A stretch of DNA of 50,460 nt from an uncultured Acidobacteriia bacterium (GTDB lineage: Bacteria > Acidobacteriota > Terriglobia > Bryobacterales > Bryobacteraceae), in NCBI GenBank assembly GCA_903925015.1, contig CAIYDY010000076.1, positions 1-50,460 of the forward strand, given 5' to 3'. The position numbers and the translations under genes were made by a program. Shown here piece by piece: positions 24,979-31,371 of the stretch. Within the stretch, counting starts at the first letter, position 1, and every line of letters starts with the position of its first letter. The notes beneath the pieces are model-generated. The model saw only the letters and a program-made list of their open reading frames with translations. It searched no databases and was not told the origin of the DNA.

Positions 24979-25050
24979 ATGGCTGACATCCTTATAGCTC
25001 TTGCCGCAATCGTTGACGCGATTGTCCAGCAAGACTCTGGCACGCCTTAA
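24979..25050 (+). CDS. Small ORF, 23-residue hydrophobic/amphipathic peptide
   Basis: An ATG with an excellent AAAGGAGAA eight bases upstream begins a 23-codon frame: MADILIALAAIVDAIV followed by QQDSGTP and TAA. The first 16 residues could form one amphipathic or membrane-inserting helix with two Asp on it. The rest is polar. Size and pattern recall type I toxins or membrane-active signal peptides, but no family was recognised. It sits between a strong terminator and the promoter of the CHAT protease gene, so it is transcribed separately or with a long leader. It could be a signal or substrate for the CHAT system; that is speculation. Confidence 0.55.
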   Translation: MADILIALAAIVDAIVQQDSGTP

Positions 25051-25148: not shown

Positions 25149-25176
25149 TTGACGGTCAAATTCCGTCGGGTACAAT
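25149..25176 (+). promoter_or_regulatory. Promoter of the CHAT operon, probably leaderless
   Basis: TTGACG (25149-25154) and TACAAT (25171-25176) are 16 bases apart. The -10 box ends 7 bases before ATG 25184, so transcription should begin at or next to the start codon. No Shine-Dalgarno sequence precedes the ATG (CGCAGAA), which agrees with leaderless translation. Confidence 0.6.
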
Positions 25177-25183
25177 CGCAGAA

Positions 25184-28159
25184 ATGCGACCCGGAATAGC
25201 CGTTGGCCTCCTATTGCTTGCCGTCGCACCGGCACAGCAACAGGTTTGTCCAGGGTTTCCAGACAAGGCAGCTTCCGACAGGGTACCGGTCAAATTCCCT
25301 GTGACGAGGTGTGTTTTGCTTTCTGTAGCACCAGGTGAATCCGTCCAGCTTCAAGTCGAACAGCCGTTCGACTTGAAGCTGGCGGTAACAGGTCCGGCTG
25401 GCGGTACCATCCAACTATTCGATGAATTCGAGTTCGGTCCGGAGACATTGACTCTGTTCATTCCGGGCGATTACCACGTTCAAGTGCTACCCGCAAAAAC
25501 TGCAACATCCGTGGCCTCTGCTATATACATGCGTCGTCGAACCCTCCCATTACAAGAGGGTCAAAAATATTTTGACGCGGAATTGGCGGCAACCAAAGCG
25601 AGAATCTCCGGAACACACGACGACCTGGAGAAGGTCCTGCAGGTGTGGCGGGATTTGGGGGACCTCTCCGCGGTCGGGCGCACGCTGCTTGCGCTGGGAG
25701 ATGCGGATGTCAACGGCAGCCATCTGGCAGCCGCGCGTGCGGAGTACCAGGATGCGGCAGACACCTGCAGCCAGGATAAATACACCAGGTGCGTGGCCGA
25801 AGCCGAAAACAACGTGGCGTTCTGCGCCCAACGGTTGGGCGACCTGCAGACAGGGCTGTCCATGCTCCCCAAGGTAGCGGGGAAGTGGCGTTCGCTGCGC
25901 ATGCCTGTTCAGGAAGGCCAGTCCCAATCGAATCTGGGGTGGGTCTATTATCAGGCAGCTGAGTATCGCCAAGCCATTGCGGCGCTAGAAAAAGCGAAGT
26001 TCTTGTTGGCGGGTCAGCGGGAACTGTCGGCGTATTCCAAAGCCTCAAATGTGTGGGCACTATGCCATTTGGCTCTGGCGGACTACGATTCCGCATATGC
26101 CGGCTTTTCAGAAGCCCTGGCCACCGTGGACAAGAAGGACTACTTCACCCAGGCGACGATCCAGCTGAGTCGGGGAATTCTGCGGCTTCGACAGGGACGG
26201 CTCCGGGAAGCCGATGATTTCATCGCCCAGGCCATCGCCGCCGGACAAAAGACGCCGAGTGTGACGTTGCAAGCGCAGTTGCTCGGTGCCAAGGGCGCAA
26301 TCCTGATGGCCAAGGGGGATATTGAGGGTGCGGGCAAGGCGTTCGCCGATGGCTTGGCTTTCGCCGTTAAAGCCGGAAATCCCCGTGAGATTGGCAACTT
26401 GCTGCACCAATCGGGCCTGAATGCCATGCGGCGAAAGGATCCCGAGGGGGCGCGGAAGTTGCTGGTGCAGGCTGCCGAGAGCCGCTGGAAGCTTGGACTG
26501 CGGGATGCGGCATCGGAGAGCCTGCTGGAGTTGGCTCGGGCGGAGATGGCGGCGGGGGATCGGGCGTCAGCGCTGGTTTCGGCGCAAAGAGCGCTCACGG
26601 CGATCCAGTCTGTCCGGTCGGATGTCCCCAGCCCCGGGATGCGTGCGACTTACTACGAACGGAAACGCGCTGTCTTCGACACTCTGGTTGACTTGGCGAT
26701 GGCGGACCGGGCTGATGGCGGTGCCCGCGGACTGCTGGCAGCAGAGCAGGGACGCTCCCGGGCTTTGCTCGACTTGCTGACGGAGGGACCGTTGGCGTCG
26801 CCCAGGACGCGCGAGTTGGCTGCGGCCAAGGCTGGGATCGACAAGGAGATTGCCTACGTCTCCAGCCAGTTGGAGAGGCCCCGTCCGGAACTGAAAGGCG
26901 GCTTGACGGAGAAACTGCAGATTCTGTTGGACCAATCCGAGTCTGTTGGAAATGATTTGGCGCGGGAAGCGGCCCGGCGGGATGCGGGCGGTACCACCAA
27001 GACGATCGGGGAAATCGCCGCGCAGGGGCTGGACGCTGACACGATGTTGCTTGAATACCACTTGGGCGAAAACGCCAGCTACCGCTGGACGCTTCGGCAC
27101 GATGGCCGACTCGAGTCCGAGGTCCTGCCTCCCCGGAAAGCGGTGGATGCCCTGGCCAATCGGTTCGTGGCACTGCTCAACGACCCGGACGGAAGGGCAA
27201 AATCACCGGAGGCACGGTTGGAATTTGGGCGTCTGCGGGCTCGCTTGTCGATCCTGCTGTTGGGGAAGCCGGGCGACGCAGACTTGCCCGGCCATCTCAT
27301 ATTCGCCTTGGACGGCAGCCTGAACCGGGTTCCAATGGCAGCTCTTCGCGGACCGAAAGGCGGATACCTAGGGCTGGAGCGGGATCTCGGGGAAACGCCA
27401 TCGGGCACATTTTTGGTATCGGGGATGAAACCGCGCCCGACCGCACCCTATCCAAAGGATATTTTGGCCTTCGCGGATCCGGTGTTCTCCACCGAGGACG
27501 AGCGGGTGGACGCAAGGCCGGCCTCCAAGCGCGCCGCCGGGGACAAGACCCTGCAGCAGCTCTACTTTGCCACCGAGTTGAAGGCGCTGAAACGAATTGT
27601 GCCCGCCAATCGGCTAACCGTGTTGAAAGGCTTCGAGGCTGTGCCGTCGGCCTTGCGGAAAATGCCTGTGGCGCAATATGCGTTCCTGTACTTTTCGACG
27701 CACTCGATCATTGACGAGCGATATCCCGAGCGGTCCAGGATTGTGCTGTCGCTGGTGGCGGATGCAACCGGAACGGCTGTGGATGGCAACCTGCATCCTG
27801 CGGATCTGGCCAAACTGACGCTCAACGGCTCCACGGCGGTGCTTTCAACATGCGAATCGGCGCTAGGCAAGATGGTGGACGGCGAGGGGTTGGCGGGCTT
27901 TACGCAAAGCTTTTTCGCGGCTGGCGCGTCGCAGCTGGTGATGTCGCTTTCCAATGTGGACGCGGGTGCCTCTGCGCAATTCTTCGAGACGTTTTATAGT
28001 AGTGTGGTGGGGCGGAAACCCCAGACGGTGGAACACTCGCTGAGACTGGCACGGGGCCGGTTGGCGGGAGATCCGCAGTTCGGCGATCCGTACTATTGGA
28101 GCAGCTTTTTTGTGGTTGGCAGACCGGTTCTGTCGGACGAGATCAGAAGGGATTTTTGA
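25184..28159 (+). CDS. Exported TPR-CHAT protein (caspase-like protease)
   Basis: The 991-residue protein starts with a signal peptide (MRPGIAVGLLLLAVAPAQQQ). A short beta domain follows, then TPR-like helical repeats from about residue 145 to 470 (for example WVYYQAAEYRQAIAALEKAK). Next is AAEQGRSRALLDLLTEG, a standard CHAT lead-in, and the CHAT domain at about 640-985. The catalytic dyad is intact: His840 in YFSTHSIIDE and Cys890 in STCESALG, followed by GLAGFTQSFFAAGASQLVMS and DPYYWSSFFVVG. CHAT proteases are relatives of caspases and separase that cut specific partner proteins. Its stop overlaps the sigma-factor start (TGATG). A periplasmic location is inferred from the signal peptide. 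Confidence 0.92.
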   Translation: MRPGIAVGLLLLAVAPAQQQVCPGFPDKAASDRVPVKFPVTRCVLLSVAPGESVQLQVEQPFDLKLAVTGPAGGTIQLFDEFEFGPETLTLFIPGDYHVQVLPAKTATSVASAIYMRRRTLPLQEGQKYFDAELAATKARISGTHDDLEKVLQVWRDLGDLSAVGRTLLALGDADVNGSHLAAARAEYQDAADTCSQDKYTRCVAEAENNVAFCAQRLGDLQTGLSMLPKVAGKWRSLRMPVQEGQSQSNLGWVYYQAAEYRQAIAALEKAKFLLAGQRELSAYSKASNVWALCHLALADYDSAYAGFSEALATVDKKDYFTQATIQLSRGILRLRQGRLREADDFIAQAIAAGQKTPSVTLQAQLLGAKGAILMAKGDIEGAGKAFADGLAFAVKAGNPREIGNLLHQSGLNAMRRKDPEGARKLLVQAAESRWKLGLRDAASESLLELARAEMAAGDRASALVSAQRALTAIQSVRSDVPSPGMRATYYERKRAVFDTLVDLAMADRADGGARGLLAAEQGRSRALLDLLTEGPLASPRTRELAAAKAGIDKEIAYVSSQLERPRPELKGGLTEKLQILLDQSESVGNDLAREAARRDAGGTTKTIGEIAAQGLDADTMLLEYHLGENASYRWTLRHDGRLESEVLPPRKAVDALANRFVALLNDPDGRAKSPEARLEFGRLRARLSILLLGKPGDADLPGHLIFALDGSLNRVPMAALRGPKGGYLGLERDLGETPSGTFLVSGMKPRPTAPYPKDILAFADPVFSTEDERVDARPASKRAAGDKTLQQLYFATELKALKRIVPANRLTVLKGFEAVPSALRKMPVAQYAFLYFSTHSIIDERYPERSRIVLSLVADATGTAVDGNLHPADLAKLTLNGSTAVLSTCESALGKMVDGEGLAGFTQSFFAAGASQLVMSLSNVDAGASAQFFETFYSSVVGRKPQTVEHSLRLARGRLAGDPQFGDPYYWSSFFVVGRPVLSDEIRRDF

Positions 28160-28689
28160 TGAACTGCAGAGACGTTCCGCCCAACTTGTGGTCCCACGCC
28201 AGGGCTGCCATCTTCATGTTTTTCAGCCGAAGGCTGGGGATGGAGCGGGCCGACGAGGTGGCGCAGGCGACCCTGCTTGCGGTCCTTCGGCGCGAAGACT
28301 ACTTGTTCGACAAGGAAGAGGACTTTCTGCGCGTGTGCCTGGGCTTCGCGAAGAAGGTGGCACCGGAACTGGCCAGAAGCGCAGAGCGTCGAAGTATGGA
28401 CGCGCTGGACTTCGAAACTGCGGCACCGTCGGCGAGGATTGGCCGCTTGGAAGGTGTCGAAACCAGCATTTACCTCGAAGAGACGATGCGGCGGGGGTCC
28501 GAGCAGCTGTCGGACTTGGAGTGGCGGCTGACCAACCGCTCAACGGTTTGTACCGGCGATGAGCTCATCGACGAGTTTCCAGATGAGTTTAAGAATGTGG
28601 AAGCCCTCAGGGTCCAACTGTTCCGGGCGCGCCGAAAACTCGCGAAAATCGTTGGTTGGCAGAAAAAGCGGACTCACGTCAAAATTTAG
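28159..28689 (+). CDS. ECF-like RNA polymerase sigma factor
   Basis: A 176-residue protein whose ATG overlaps the CHAT stop by one base, so translation is probably coupled. Region 2 is recognisable: FSRRLGMERADEVAQATLLA, then DKEEDFLRVCLGFAKKVAPE, matching the ECF helix pattern that binds the -10 element and core polymerase. The C-terminal part ends in VEALRVQLFRARRKLAKIVG, as in region 4 (usually 'V-SRL-RAR--L'). The helix-turn-helix before it (CTGDELIDEFPDEFKN) is unlike the common form, so it may recognise an unusual -35 element. It likely directs a regulon that is held off by the following gene product. Confidence 0.82.
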   Translation: MNCRDVPPNLWSHARAAIFMFFSRRLGMERADEVAQATLLAVLRREDYLFDKEEDFLRVCLGFAKKVAPELARSAERRSMDALDFETAAPSARIGRLEGVETSIYLEETMRRGSEQLSDLEWRLTNRSTVCTGDELIDEFPDEFKNVEALRVQLFRARRKLAKIVGWQKKRTHVKI

Positions 28690-28751
28690 GGCTAGTACCG
28701 GCTTTTTTGTTGTAATGCGTCGCGCTCCCAAGTCATACCATCATAGAGACC

Positions 28752-29525
28752 GTGAAAGACTATTTACTGGGAATCATGGATGCCCACGAGGCTGATGCCC
28801 TCGAGGAGCAGTATTTCACCGACCGCACTGTGCTGTTGCAATTGCGGGCCGTGGAAACCGAATTGATCCAGGACTATTTGGCCGGTCGGCTGTCACCGGT
28901 GGAACGGGGCCTTTTCGAGGGCCGCTACCTGAGGATTCCAGAGCTGCTGCAGCGTGTGGAGGAGGTTCGGGCCAGCATGCCCGCCGCAGCCCCGCAATTG
29001 CCGACGTTGGTGCCTCGGGAAACTCGCCGGGCACCGGGCGGCATGCTCAAGGGCTTCCTGTTCGCTGTGGCTGCGGCTGCCTCGGTCTGCTTGGTGTGGG
29101 TGTTCCGCCATCCGGCACCGACTGCCATGGTTGCCGTCGGAACCATTCGCAAACCAGCACAAATTACCGGCAAATCCATCCGATTGCAGGGCGGTGTTTC
29201 GATGGGCACCGAGCAGGCCGCGCGATTGGAGCTGGGTGGCGACGCACCCACCATACAGTTCCGGCTGGTGCTACCGCCGGGAGCCGCAGGTGCTGAATGT
29301 TCCGTCAAGCTTTCCCGGAAAGACAGGGACGGGGAGTTGAACGTAGTTTGGGAGAGTCCTGCGCCCATGCACTCGGCACGGGTTGGAGATGCGTGGGAAC
29401 TGACAGTGGACCTGCCGACTGCACTGGCAAAACGCGGAGAGCACGTTTTCGAGGTCGGCTGGCCAGGCCATCGACCCGGGAGGATGTATCCGGTCCGGCT
29501 GGTAGAACCGGAAAACGTAAGGTAA
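28752..29525 (+). CDS. Single-pass membrane protein, candidate anti-sigma factor
   Basis: From GTG 28752 the product is 257 residues. The first ~95 are cytoplasmic and acidic/helical: EADALEEQYFTDRTVLLQLR, then ETELIQDYLAGRLSPVERG and FEGRYL. This helical pattern is common in acidobacterial anti-sigma-type proteins that lack the zinc HxxxCxxC motif. One membrane helix follows (GFLFAVAAAASVCLVWVF), then a C-terminal beta domain of about 140 residues (IQFRLVLPPGAAGAECSV, GEHVFEVGWPGHRPG) that would be periplasmic. Position after the sigma gene and topology support an anti-sigma role. The 62-base gap has no clear terminator. The periplasmic part is a plausible substrate for the CHAT protease; untested. 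Confidence 0.72.
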   Translation: MKDYLLGIMDAHEADALEEQYFTDRTVLLQLRAVETELIQDYLAGRLSPVERGLFEGRYLRIPELLQRVEEVRASMPAAAPQLPTLVPRETRRAPGGMLKGFLFAVAAAASVCLVWVFRHPAPTAMVAVGTIRKPAQITGKSIRLQGGVSMGTEQAARLELGGDAPTIQFRLVLPPGAAGAECSVKLSRKDRDGELNVVWESPAPMHSARVGDAWELTVDLPTALAKRGEHVFEVGWPGHRPGRMYPVRLVEPENVR

Positions 29526-29530
29526 TACCC

Positions 29531-30091
29531 CTACTTGGCGTTCATGCGGTAGACGTAAATCATATGTTTGCTGCCGCCAACCAGAACTGTGTCCACCTTC
29601 GCGGCCTTCCAGCCACGAATCTCAAAATCGTGGGAGACAACGCGGGCTGTCGGTTTGAGGTCCCGTTCCAGGACCGGTTTCAGCCGTTCGTTCGAGCTGG
29701 TCATCAGGTAGAGCGTCACCACATCGGCGTCGCTCAGTTTCGTCCGGAGGGCGTTGCCGTGGATCACCTTGACTTGGTCGGTCAACCCGAGCGATACGAT
29801 CCGGGCTTGGGTTGCCTCGGCGATGTCGCGGCGGATTTCAACGCCTACCGCCTTCGCGTTGAACTTCCTGGCAGCCGAAATCAGGATACGACCGTCACCA
29901 CAGCCCAAATCGTAAACGACCTCGCCCGGTTTCACGTCGGACAACTCCAGCATTCGGTCGACAACGGACTCGGGCGTTGGAAATGCGGGGGCCAGGGTGT
30001 CTGGGTCGGTGTATTTTTGTGCGGACAGAATGGCAACCCAGCAAAGGGCCGTCACGGAAAATCTTAGTGCCGCGTTCACGCTCAGTTTCAT
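29531..30091 (-). CDS. SAM-dependent methyltransferase with an apparent signal peptide
   Basis: From ATG 30091 the product is 186 residues. The first ~25 (LRFSVTALCWVAILSAQKY) look like a cleavable signal peptide. Then comes TPESVVDRMLELSDVKPGEV and a full methyltransferase core: VYDLGCGDGRILISAA (motif I), AVGVEIRRDIAEAT (acidic motif II), VIHGNALRTKLSDADVVTLY (post-II). This is the DOT1-like/PCMT-like layout. Export of a SAM-using enzyme is puzzling because SAM is cytoplasmic; the N-terminus may instead be a membrane anchor. It starts 2 bases after the stop of the VWA-like gene, so the two are co-transcribed. Confidence 0.85.
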   Translation of the reverse strand: MKLSVNAALRFSVTALCWVAILSAQKYTDPDTLAPAFPTPESVVDRMLELSDVKPGEVVYDLGCGDGRILISAARKFNAKAVGVEIRRDIAEATQARIVSLGLTDQVKVIHGNALRTKLSDADVVTLYLMTSSNERLKPVLERDLKPTARVVSHDFEIRGWKAAKVDTVLVGGSKHMIYVYRMNAK

Positions 30092-30093
30092 CG

Positions 30094-31371
30094 CTACTTT
30101 GTGGACGTTGAAGCGGTGGCTACAAGTTTCATCTTTGCCAACCGGCCCATGATGTCGGTCCACGCGTTCCATAGATCGCGCGGGCGGCTAATGGTGTATT
30201 CAAAGCCGCGCATGCGCTTGACGACGGTTCCAATCGAGTCCCTCCACGGCGTCTGTGCCGGGGTCAGGATGTAGTTCATGTAGAACACGGGGAACGGGGA
30301 GGCTGCGATTTCCTTGAAACTGTCGGCCGGTAGGGGCTCGTCCAGCATCACCTTCGGACCGGCAAAGATTACCGCGTCCGAGTCGTGGGTGCCGAGCTCG
30401 TCCTGGAGAAGTTTGGCGAGAAAATCGGTCTCGCTGTGCTTGTCCACAAGTTTGTTGTAATCGACGATACCCAGCTTTAGCTTGGACAGAGCCTTGCCGA
30501 GCTCCGGGAAATCGATCTTGTCCGAGTCGTCCTGCCGGTAGACCACTTTTTGGTCGTTCATATTAAAGGCGACCAGCGAGAAACGGTGGATTTTGGGCTC
30601 GCGCGAAATGTTGCGCAAGATCGAGACCAAGGCGCTGGTGTCGATGGGTTGCATGGCCGCGGCTGCGGAGCGTTGGGGCGAAAAATTGAGAAGAATCTTA
30701 ACCTTGAAGGGCTCTTCGGGCGAGATCCTGGTCACCGGTGGCTCGTCGCGGAAGAACTCCCGCTCGGAGGCCTCGATGGCTTTGGGTGCAATGGCGGTCC
30801 GGATACCCTGGTCCTTGGGCGGCAGCGTCGCCGAGAGGTCCCAATTTTGGGAGCAGACGCGCTCCATGCGGTCGCGCATCATGAACGACACGTGGTACGA
30901 GCCTTCGCCGAGGTCGAAGCCGCCCTGCAGGAATGCGTCTCCCTTGGCATCCTCCTCAATGTCGGGCACGGTGTAGTGCTGCGAGAAGTAGACGGGGGAG
31001 TCCTTGGCGTCGTCGGATGTAACTTTCAGAAGAATGGTGAGCTGGTCGCCGGCACCGGAGATTTCGCGCAAGGGCAAAACGATGTCGTAGCCGGTGTGGA
31101 AGCGGAGGTCAAAACCGAGAACCGGCTTCACCTGCGTCGCGGTACAGGGAAGGTCCTTCTTCACATCCTCGATTTCGAGGATTGCCGAGTCCGACGCCAA
31201 GAGTTGTATTGCGCCGTGGGACGACACCCCCTGCATCAGGTTTTGCGCGGCGGCGCGCGGGAGAATGCTTGCAAGCAAAAGTGGGCTCAGCAGCCACACC
31301 GTTGTTCGCCCGAGCGTGCGGGCAGTTTCGCTGTTAGAGTCCTGTGCCGAGGAGCAAAGCTGTCGAATCAC
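30094..31371 (-). CDS. Secreted VWA-like protein (acidobacterial type)
   Basis: From GTG 31371 the product is 425 residues with a long signal region (TTVWLLSPLLLASILPRAAA). The second half has an alternating strand/helix layout like a von Willebrand A domain: FKVKILLNFSPQRSAAAAM, ALVSILRNISREPKIHRFSL, VAFNMNDQKVVYRQDD, DAVIFAGPKVMLDEPLPADS. The usual DxSxS metal site reads NFSPQ, so metal-dependent adhesion is doubtful. A conserved CSQNWDLSATLPPKDQ block precedes it. Function is unknown. It is the upstream partner of the methyltransferase 29531-30091. Confidence 0.72.
   Translation of the reverse strand: MIRQLCSSAQDSNSETARTLGRTTVWLLSPLLLASILPRAAAQNLMQGVSSHGAIQLLASDSAILEIEDVKKDLPCTATQVKPVLGFDLRFHTGYDIVLPLREISGAGDQLTILLKVTSDDAKDSPVYFSQHYTVPDIEEDAKGDAFLQGGFDLGEGSYHVSFMMRDRMERVCSQNWDLSATLPPKDQGIRTAIAPKAIEASEREFFRDEPPVTRISPEEPFKVKILLNFSPQRSAAAAMQPIDTSALVSILRNISREPKIHRFSLVAFNMNDQKVVYRQDDSDKIDFPELGKALSKLKLGIVDYNKLVDKHSETDFLAKLLQDELGTHDSDAVIFAGPKVMLDEPLPADSFKEIAASPFPVFYMNYILTPAQTPWRDSIGTVVKRMRGFEYTISRPRDLWNAWTDIMGRLAKMKLVATASTSTK

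Follow-up and report, generated by a model that had tools for sequence, protein, structure and literature searches.

A TPR-CHAT protein, an ECF-type sigma factor and a membrane anti-sigma factor as a recurring gene set in Acidobacteriota

Introduction

The CHAT domain is already known to be joined to an anti-sigma factor in DdvA of Myxococcus xanthus and to a sigma inhibitor in type III-E CRISPR systems, and CHAT genes are known from the genomic context of the extracytoplasmic function (ECF) sigma factor group ECF54. DdvA is the cognate anti-sigma factor of DdvS (PMC4374960), which in turn controls an antiphage island (PMC12288465). Csx29 is described as a CHAT protease that cuts the sigma inhibitor Csx30 and so relieves the sigma factor (PMC10028731), and CHAT, subtilase and carboxypeptidase genes are reported from the context of ECF54, with proteolytic control proposed (PMC8999054). 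Here we describe three genes in a row, all on the + strand, for a tetratricopeptide repeat (TPR)-CHAT protein, a sigma factor and an anti-sigma factor (the triad) in a contig of an uncultured Acidobacteriia bacterium (CAIYDY010000076.1, assembly GCA_903925015.1). The whole stretch of DNA analysed, 50,460 nucleotides, is referred to as the window. New are the split form, which is widespread and comes without type III-E CRISPR, and its fused counterparts. Literature searches, limited to the papers accessible to us, brought up none on the split triad of Acidobacteriota, and a text search of PMC8103513 and PMC7406223 gave no occurrence of the word CHAT.

DdvS/DdvA resembles the triad in combining an ECF sigma factor with a transmembrane anti-sigma factor, and the PDB molecule name of DdvA (8rot, 8rw5) is 'CHAT domain-containing protein'. 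Its one-polypeptide layout is not that of the window, in which the anti-sigma factor and the TPR-CHAT protein are encoded by separate genes and each has an extra beta domain, but it is the layout of four fusion proteins from Acidobacteriota (loci L223–L226 in our own numbering). DdvS also differs in controlling an antiphage island; nothing comparable was seen beside the window triad. Csx29, Csx30 and CASP-sigma likewise unite a TPR-CHAT protein, an ECF sigma factor and a sigma inhibitor. That system is cytoplasmic, whereas the CHAT protein here is predicted to be exported and the anti-sigma factor to lie in the membrane. The Cas7-11 gene and CRISPR array that a Craspase has at its locus did not turn up in the window, for which no search with a Cas7-11 model was made, and Pfam and NCBIfam scans identified no Csx30-like protein among the three window genes.

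With ECF54 the triad shares an ECF sigma gene with a CHAT protein nearby and the proposal of proteolytic control. That control is proposed for ECF sigma factors without an anti-sigma factor, with an actinobacterial model member; the window has an anti-sigma gene (28752–29525) and, judged by gene context and not by sequence, falls outside ECF54. The proteolysis of RseA and RsiW (DegS, RseP) offers a further parallel in its single-span anti-sigma factor with an outer part, M50 proteases being present in the genome of the window as well. It differs in that the candidate site-1 protease here is a CHAT cysteine peptidase of the same gene set.

Results

Composition of the triad

The features of the triad are as follows.

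25184–28159, + strand: TPR-CHAT protein, exported by prediction, putative cysteine protease, 991 amino acids (open reading frame call, Pfam, AlphaFold2)
25184–25243, + strand: signal-peptide-like N-terminus, approximately the first 20 residues (own heuristic, sequence)
25274–25549, + strand: N-terminal beta-sandwich domain, residues 31–122 (AlphaFold2 strands, hidden Markov model of the domain)
25550–26611, + strand: TPR superhelix, residues 123–476 (Pfam, AlphaFold2)
27005–28120, + strand: CHAT region, residues 608–979, with the Pfam match at 699–979 (Pfam, AlphaFold2)
27701–27703, + strand: codon CAC of His840, catalytic dyad position (sequence, alignment columns)
27851–27853, + strand: codon TGC of Cys890, catalytic dyad position (sequence, alignment columns)
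28159–28689, + strand: divergent ECF-type sigma factor, 176 amino acids, its start overlapping the CHAT stop (TGATG, 28157–28161) (family profile, sequence)
28752–29525, + strand: single-span anti-sigma factor, 257 amino acids, GTG start (alignments, AlphaFold2)
28755–28976, + strand: cytoplasmic helical anti-sigma domain, residues 2–75, with a YLLG...YF motif (alignment, AlphaFold2)
29049–29108, + strand: transmembrane helix, residues 100–119 (hydropathy, AlphaFold2)
29172–29504, + strand: Ig-like or beta-sandwich outer domain, residues 141–251 (AlphaFold2, Foldseek)

The first protein matched Pfam CHAT (PF12770) at residues 699–979 with an E value of 2.9e-44 (152.1 bits, cut-off of 24) and TPR_12 with one of 6.6e-16. 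The match over the curated cut-off and the His/Cys dyad place it in the CHAT peptidase family, and proteolytic activity is predicted. Its AlphaFold2 model (18-row alignment, mean pLDDT of 82.9, pTM of 0.74) shows the beta domain, the TPR superhelix, a helical linker and, starting near residue 608, the CHAT region; pLDDT is below 50 at residues 890–900 beside Cys890, and active-site geometry is not readable from the model. Compared with the PDB by E value, the model matched DdvA first (8rw5, 3.8e-15; 8rot, 5.3e-15), then separase and then Csx29 chains (8eey_B, 1.2e-13). By TM-score over the target, Csx29 was nearer (7y84_C, 0.57; 8eey_B, 0.49) than DdvA (0.32), for which TM-scores were low (0.28/0.32) and overall shapes differ. 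The only PDB match of a CHAT-domain profile was 8rot_B, a weak one (E of 0.13) in which the His of 'ATHG' and the Cys of 'VVLAACE' in DdvA align with the dyad motifs. A preliminary description of this DNA had drawn a parallel with type III-E CRISPR; the resemblance of the CHAT model to Csx29 stands, and DdvA, which that description had missed, is likewise among the nearest known counterparts. The sole defence-system match among the three proteins was a weak one of the TPR part to ZorC (E of 0.004).

Taken alone, the window sigma factor gave no Pfam sigma match over cut-off and matched TIGR02989 at an E value of 0.001, far under the cut-off of that model. A profile of nine triad sigma factors matched ECF structures in the PDB, namely SigL (5.4e-9), RpoE/SigE (1.1e-7) and SigW (8e-5), and it is by this family profile that the protein is assigned to the ECF sigma factors, its lone sequence being weak. 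Sigma70_r4_2 was found in four of the nine and Sigma70_r2 in one (E values up to 0.1).

The anti-sigma gene follows after a gap of 62 nucleotides. The AlphaFold2 model of its product (mean pLDDT of 79, pTM of 0.45) has helices at residues 2–75, a helix at 100–119 and strands at 141–251, the predicted layout of a class I membrane anti-sigma factor with an N-terminal helical domain, one transmembrane helix and the C-terminus outside; sigma binding is likewise predicted. Foldseek related the sandwich to cupredoxin and Ig-like folds (best E of 5.5e-4, low TM-score). Weak zf-HC2 matches were obtained for 14 of 21 anti-sigma family members, and the best PDB match of the anti-sigma profile, at an E value of only 0.17, was chain 3hug_B, which we take to be RslA, the partner of SigL. 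The elements listed in the preliminary description were thus recovered: a signal peptide (by our own heuristic), TPR repeats and an intact His840/Cys890 dyad in the first protein (Pfam, sequence), a TGATG overlap with an ECF-like sigma gene (nine-sigma profile) and a single-span third protein with an anti-sigma layout (AlphaFold2 layout, family alignments).

A larger anti-sigma factor was seen at L119 (5122–7044), where a protein of 641 amino acids with an outer part of 500 residues, to which no Pfam family was matched, adjoins a sigma gene with no CHAT.

Conservation of the gene set

Genes were found by six-frame search with hidden Markov models built from these loci, and all counts therefore cover this subfamily and are partly selected by it. 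Starting from the anti-sigma factor, matches were obtained in 61 of 151 genomes of the class set. Forty loci were fetched from the listed places, the strongest plus weaker ones of our choice, and 26 of these had a CHAT gene within 2.5 kb on the same strand and one had it on the opposite strand. The phylum set, queried with an alignment (A5) drawn from CHAT-anchored loci, gave matches in 130 of 247 genomes. Its best 35 split places, that is, all those above a cut of our choosing with the window's own locus excluded, had CHAT on the same strand in 27 cases and on the opposite strand in two (29/35, or 27/33 without the two that repeat contigs of the query alignment).

In a CHAT-first census of named genomes, restricted to the best 80 of 143 relatives, a sigma/anti-sigma pair lay within 3 kb in 27 of 46 loci of Acidobacteriota, two of seven of other bacteria (a Myxococcaceae and a Verrucomicrobia metagenome-assembled genome) and none of 27 of Cyanobacteria. 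The 27 paired Acidobacteriota loci had the order CHAT-sigma-anti in 15 cases and sigma-anti-CHAT in four, and were tail-to-tail in eight. Pairless CHAT loci less than 1.5 kb from a contig end numbered eight in Acidobacteriota, two in other bacteria and five in Cyanobacteria. The sigma model also overlooks some sigma factors, given that the anti-sigma matches of L071 and L085 adjoin genes with weak region-4 matches.

On a quickly built tree of 130 CHAT domains, made after the removal of seven loci that shared a contig with another, the three gene orders were clustered yet interspersed. The starred branches of this tree force at least four, four, five and nine label changes for CHAT-sigma-anti, sigma-anti-CHAT, tail-to-tail and 'none', respectively. 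Cyanobacteria fell on one side of one branch (support of 78), and the window grouped with L050, L051 and L052, all CHAT-sigma-anti (support of 100). The interspersion indicates that the linkage outlived rearrangement or arose repeatedly. TPR-CHAT, sigma factor and membrane anti-sigma factor are a recurring gene set in Acidobacteriota. The preliminary description had inferred the pairing of the three genes and had suggested a search for their synteny in acidobacterial genomes; synteny is conserved, in three gene orders, and together with the fusions described below it bears out the pairing.

The genome of the window (G000) contains a second triad (contig C39, L079) and a third CHAT without a triad (L080). 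Another class of Acidobacteriota CHAT is followed by an S41 peptidase gene (L065, L074 and similar; Pfam, two proteins tested), with similar-sized neighbours at other loci. In a third class, DUF4384 proteins lie downstream of CHAT (L054, L055) and protein kinases upstream of it (L058, L064).

Fusions of anti-sigma factor and TPR-CHAT

Seven long-frame anti-sigma candidates were fetched, and four (L223–L226, from four genomes) proved to be CHAT fusions. These proteins of about 1170–1220 amino acids consist of an anti-sigma domain, a hydrophobic span (by eye), TPR and CHAT, each adjoins a sigma gene, and their Pfam CHAT E values range from 2.6e-63 to 6.1e-58. They have the same layout as DdvA, although the L223 protein gave no DdvA match by phmmer at E 0.01. 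Their anti-sigma match stops after the transmembrane region, at profile positions 113–125, whereas 94 of 98 split anti-sigma factors (E < 1e-30) reach position 225 or beyond, that is, the outer domain. The beta domain of CHAT was present in none of the four fusions, 33 of 45 CHAT-sigma-anti loci, 13 of 26 sigma-anti-CHAT loci, two of 10 tail-to-tail loci and 18 of 72 unlinked CHATs. Judging by this pattern, docking of the two beta domains may take the place of a covalent connection; the patchy occurrence of the CHAT beta domain argues against such docking as a general rule.

Two further candidates, L218 and L227, were rejected as CHAT fusions, having other outer parts instead of CHAT, and the long frame of L219 had no anti-sigma match. 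The L218 (1327 amino acids) and L227 (977 amino acids) proteins lie beside sigma matches and have an anti-sigma-like N-terminus. On visual inspection, both also contain a part resembling von Willebrand type A, and L218 has ankyrin-like repeats as well.

Catalytic dyad and export

His840 and Cys890 were invariant in 12 triad CHATs (alignment A3) and in 18 (A6). In a wider count, limited to rows with letters at both columns (three fragment rows among linked or fused CHATs and three rows with no pair were gapped) and made after nine loci on duplicate contigs had been dropped, both residues were present without exception, in all 51 CHAT-sigma-anti, all 26 sigma-anti-CHAT, all 13 tail-to-tail and all four fused rows (94/94 in total).

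Signal peptides were called with a home-made rule, not with SignalP. Among CHATs, 30 of the 35 in triads and 20 of the 24 others passed it, compared with two of 55 sigma and four of 63 anti-sigma segments, with 140 codons scanned for CHATs and 90 for the sigma and anti-sigma controls. For the named set, 200 codons were scanned, and the rule was passed by 19 of the 23 triad CHATs, by 20 of the 21 from Cyanobacteria and by 13 of the other 16. By this rule, export is usual for CHATs of this kind, in agreement with the earlier view that the protease appears exported. Given an exported CHAT and a third protein with an anti-sigma layout, the CHAT domain and the outer part of the anti-sigma factor would share one compartment, a reading that the natural fusions strengthen.

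Upstream region and neighbourhood

Two features were noted upstream of the CHAT gene.

24979–25050, + strand: candidate hydrophobic micropeptide open reading frame, 23 amino acids, ending in VQQDSGTP, with a Shine-Dalgarno-like sequence (comparison with relatives)
25149–25176, + strand: match to a sigma-70-like promoter (TTGACG-16-TACAAT), shortly before the ATG start of CHAT

The short frame at window positions 24979–25050 is MADILIALAAIVDAIVQQDSGTP. The peptide is identical at L138, and the three nearest triads (L139, L140, L052) have similar hydrophobic frames of 24–26 amino acids with a Shine-Dalgarno-like sequence, starting 190–280 nucleotides before CHAT. Frames of this type, a pattern defined after the fact, occurred in seven of 12 loci (weaker in L056 and L079) and not in five (one with only 95 nucleotides upstream), and in 105 of 3000 random stretches. 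The region contains two sigma-70-like promoter matches against 1.1 expected in shuffles, which alone is no evidence, and the match before CHAT is not conserved in L139 and L140. A conserved ECF promoter before CHAT was also considered and rejected, none being found in the four-row upstream alignment.

No CRISPR repeat array and no Rfam match were found in the window, and a CRISPR link for the triad was rejected because of the missing array. Three cas1 matches lie on other contigs of the same genome (C91, C264, C425), and CRISPR systems thus exist elsewhere in it; the earlier statement that no CRISPR is present therefore holds for the window and not for the genome. A defence island beside the triad was likewise rejected, given that PADLOC returned for the neighbours only methyltransferase-type matches (29534–30172 and its L050 counterpart). 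The gene at 29534–30172 (– strand) encodes a methyltransferase with a signal-like N-terminus, matched by PADLOC mad2 (E of 2e-19) over part of the profile, and its product is most likely a generic methyltransferase.

Discussion

We consider it very probable that the three genes form one functional unit of extracytoplasmic signalling. Cleavage of the anti-sigma factor by CHAT at site 1, in line with the cut that the preliminary description had put forward, is the single most likely account of its working because of the outward-facing parts, the kept cysteine dyad, the natural fusions and the Csx29 precedent; for the full account, in which this first cut frees the sigma factor, we estimate a probability of roughly 45%. 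The anti-sigma factor would hold the ECF sigma factor at the inner face of the membrane, with its Ig-like domain outside. Sharing that outer compartment, the exported beta-sandwich/TPR/CHAT protein would detect a signal by means of its TPR and beta domains; once activated, CHAT would contact the anti-sigma factor and make the first cut in its outer part. An RseP-type membrane protease would cut next and release the sigma factor. Three Peptidase_M50 matches over cut-off were found in the genome, and these M50 proteins could serve as the site-2 protease.

Several observations weigh against this account. No CHAT lay within 2.5 kb on either strand at 13 of the 40 class loci (three of the 13, L124, L127 and L130, being on short or ending contigs) and at six of the best 35 split places of the phylum set. 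Some anti-sigma factors without CHAT have no transmembrane helix by hydropathy (L098, L099, L101 and the second anti-sigma factor of L122, more than 5 kb from CHAT), and others carry one (L103, L107, L110, L119 and others). Single-sequence matches of sigma and anti-sigma factors are weak, and no conserved cut site was seen by eye in anti-sigma alignments A2 and A5. CHATs that lack a sigma pair retain the dyad just as well (all 84 rows that could be aligned), and its presence is therefore no argument for the anti-sigma factor as substrate. Five of the 35 triad CHATs failed the signal-peptide rule, for which CHATs were given the longer scan, and cysteine protease activity in an oxidising outer compartment is assumed. 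At L138 (G017, contig C938), near-identical to the window at this locus, CHAT is matched as two pieces that overlap, the second of them containing a stop, which looks like a frameshift or misassembly, and the CHAT of L057 is likewise split. Finally, a role of CHAT as docked sensor or as output fits much of the same data.

As a sensor or co-inhibitor, TPR-CHAT would dock on the anti-sigma factor and pass on the binding of an outside ligand by conformational change, the first cut, if any, being made by another protease. We regard this as rather unlikely. TPR-CHAT in all four fusions just makes up the outer part of the anti-sigma factor, as in DdvA, which is named a transmembrane anti-sigma factor, and the absence from them of both the anti-sigma outer domain and the CHAT beta domain is what would be expected if those domains dock the split proteins. 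However, a pure sensor could lose the dyad, which is kept in all alignable rows including the fusions, and some split systems do without the CHAT beta domain (it is present in 13 of the 26 sigma-anti-CHAT and two of the 10 tail-to-tail loci). The fusions also bear on the converse arrangement, in which the sigma/anti-sigma pair would sense through the Ig-like domain and switch on CHAT as an exported protease with other targets, in defence, cell death or envelope turnover: joining TPR-CHAT to the anti-sigma factor puts CHAT upstream of sigma release. Such an output role, which we judge unlikely, would suit the position of CHAT as first gene of the window operon, ECF operons being often autoregulated. 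It would also suit the dyad of unlinked CHATs (84/84), which must then have other jobs, and the location of other Acidobacteriota CHATs next to S41 peptidase or DUF4384 genes. Yet the tail-to-tail loci (8/46) would need a separate promoter, and the single promoter-like match ahead of CHAT is of the sigma-70 type and no more than chance would give.

That the genes are neighbours by inertia alone, with no joint work, appears most improbable. Close relatives can inherit linkage and pairless CHATs are many (19 of 46 Acidobacteriota loci), but the linkage persists in three different orders spread across the tree of CHAT domains (well-supported branches force no fewer than 4, 4 and 5 label changes), and fusions exist. 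Chance proximity is also small: by our arithmetic, even a genome of 7.3 Mb with 38 CHAT candidates at first look (G021) would have one within 2.5 kb of a random point in only some 4% of cases.

Returning to site-1 cleavage, a bolder form of it is possible though doubtful. The triad would be a CRISPR-independent, extracytoplasmic counterpart of Craspase, widespread in Acidobacteriota, with the exported TPR-CHAT as dedicated site-1 protease of its own anti-sigma factor, in a split form docked by the paired beta domains and in a one-piece, self-cutting form; in the lineage of the window, the upstream micropeptide may be a ligand or regulator.

The split and fused natural versions make the system directly testable with few proteins. 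They also open a way to study how the protease-sigma branch of type III-E CRISPR was gained, an evolutionary link that is speculation. If the account given here is true, Acidobacteriota, a major soil phylum, would own envelope signalling devices built round caspase-like proteases, and the CHAT/sigma link of type III-E CRISPR and of Myxococcus DdvA would be one case of a broader principle.

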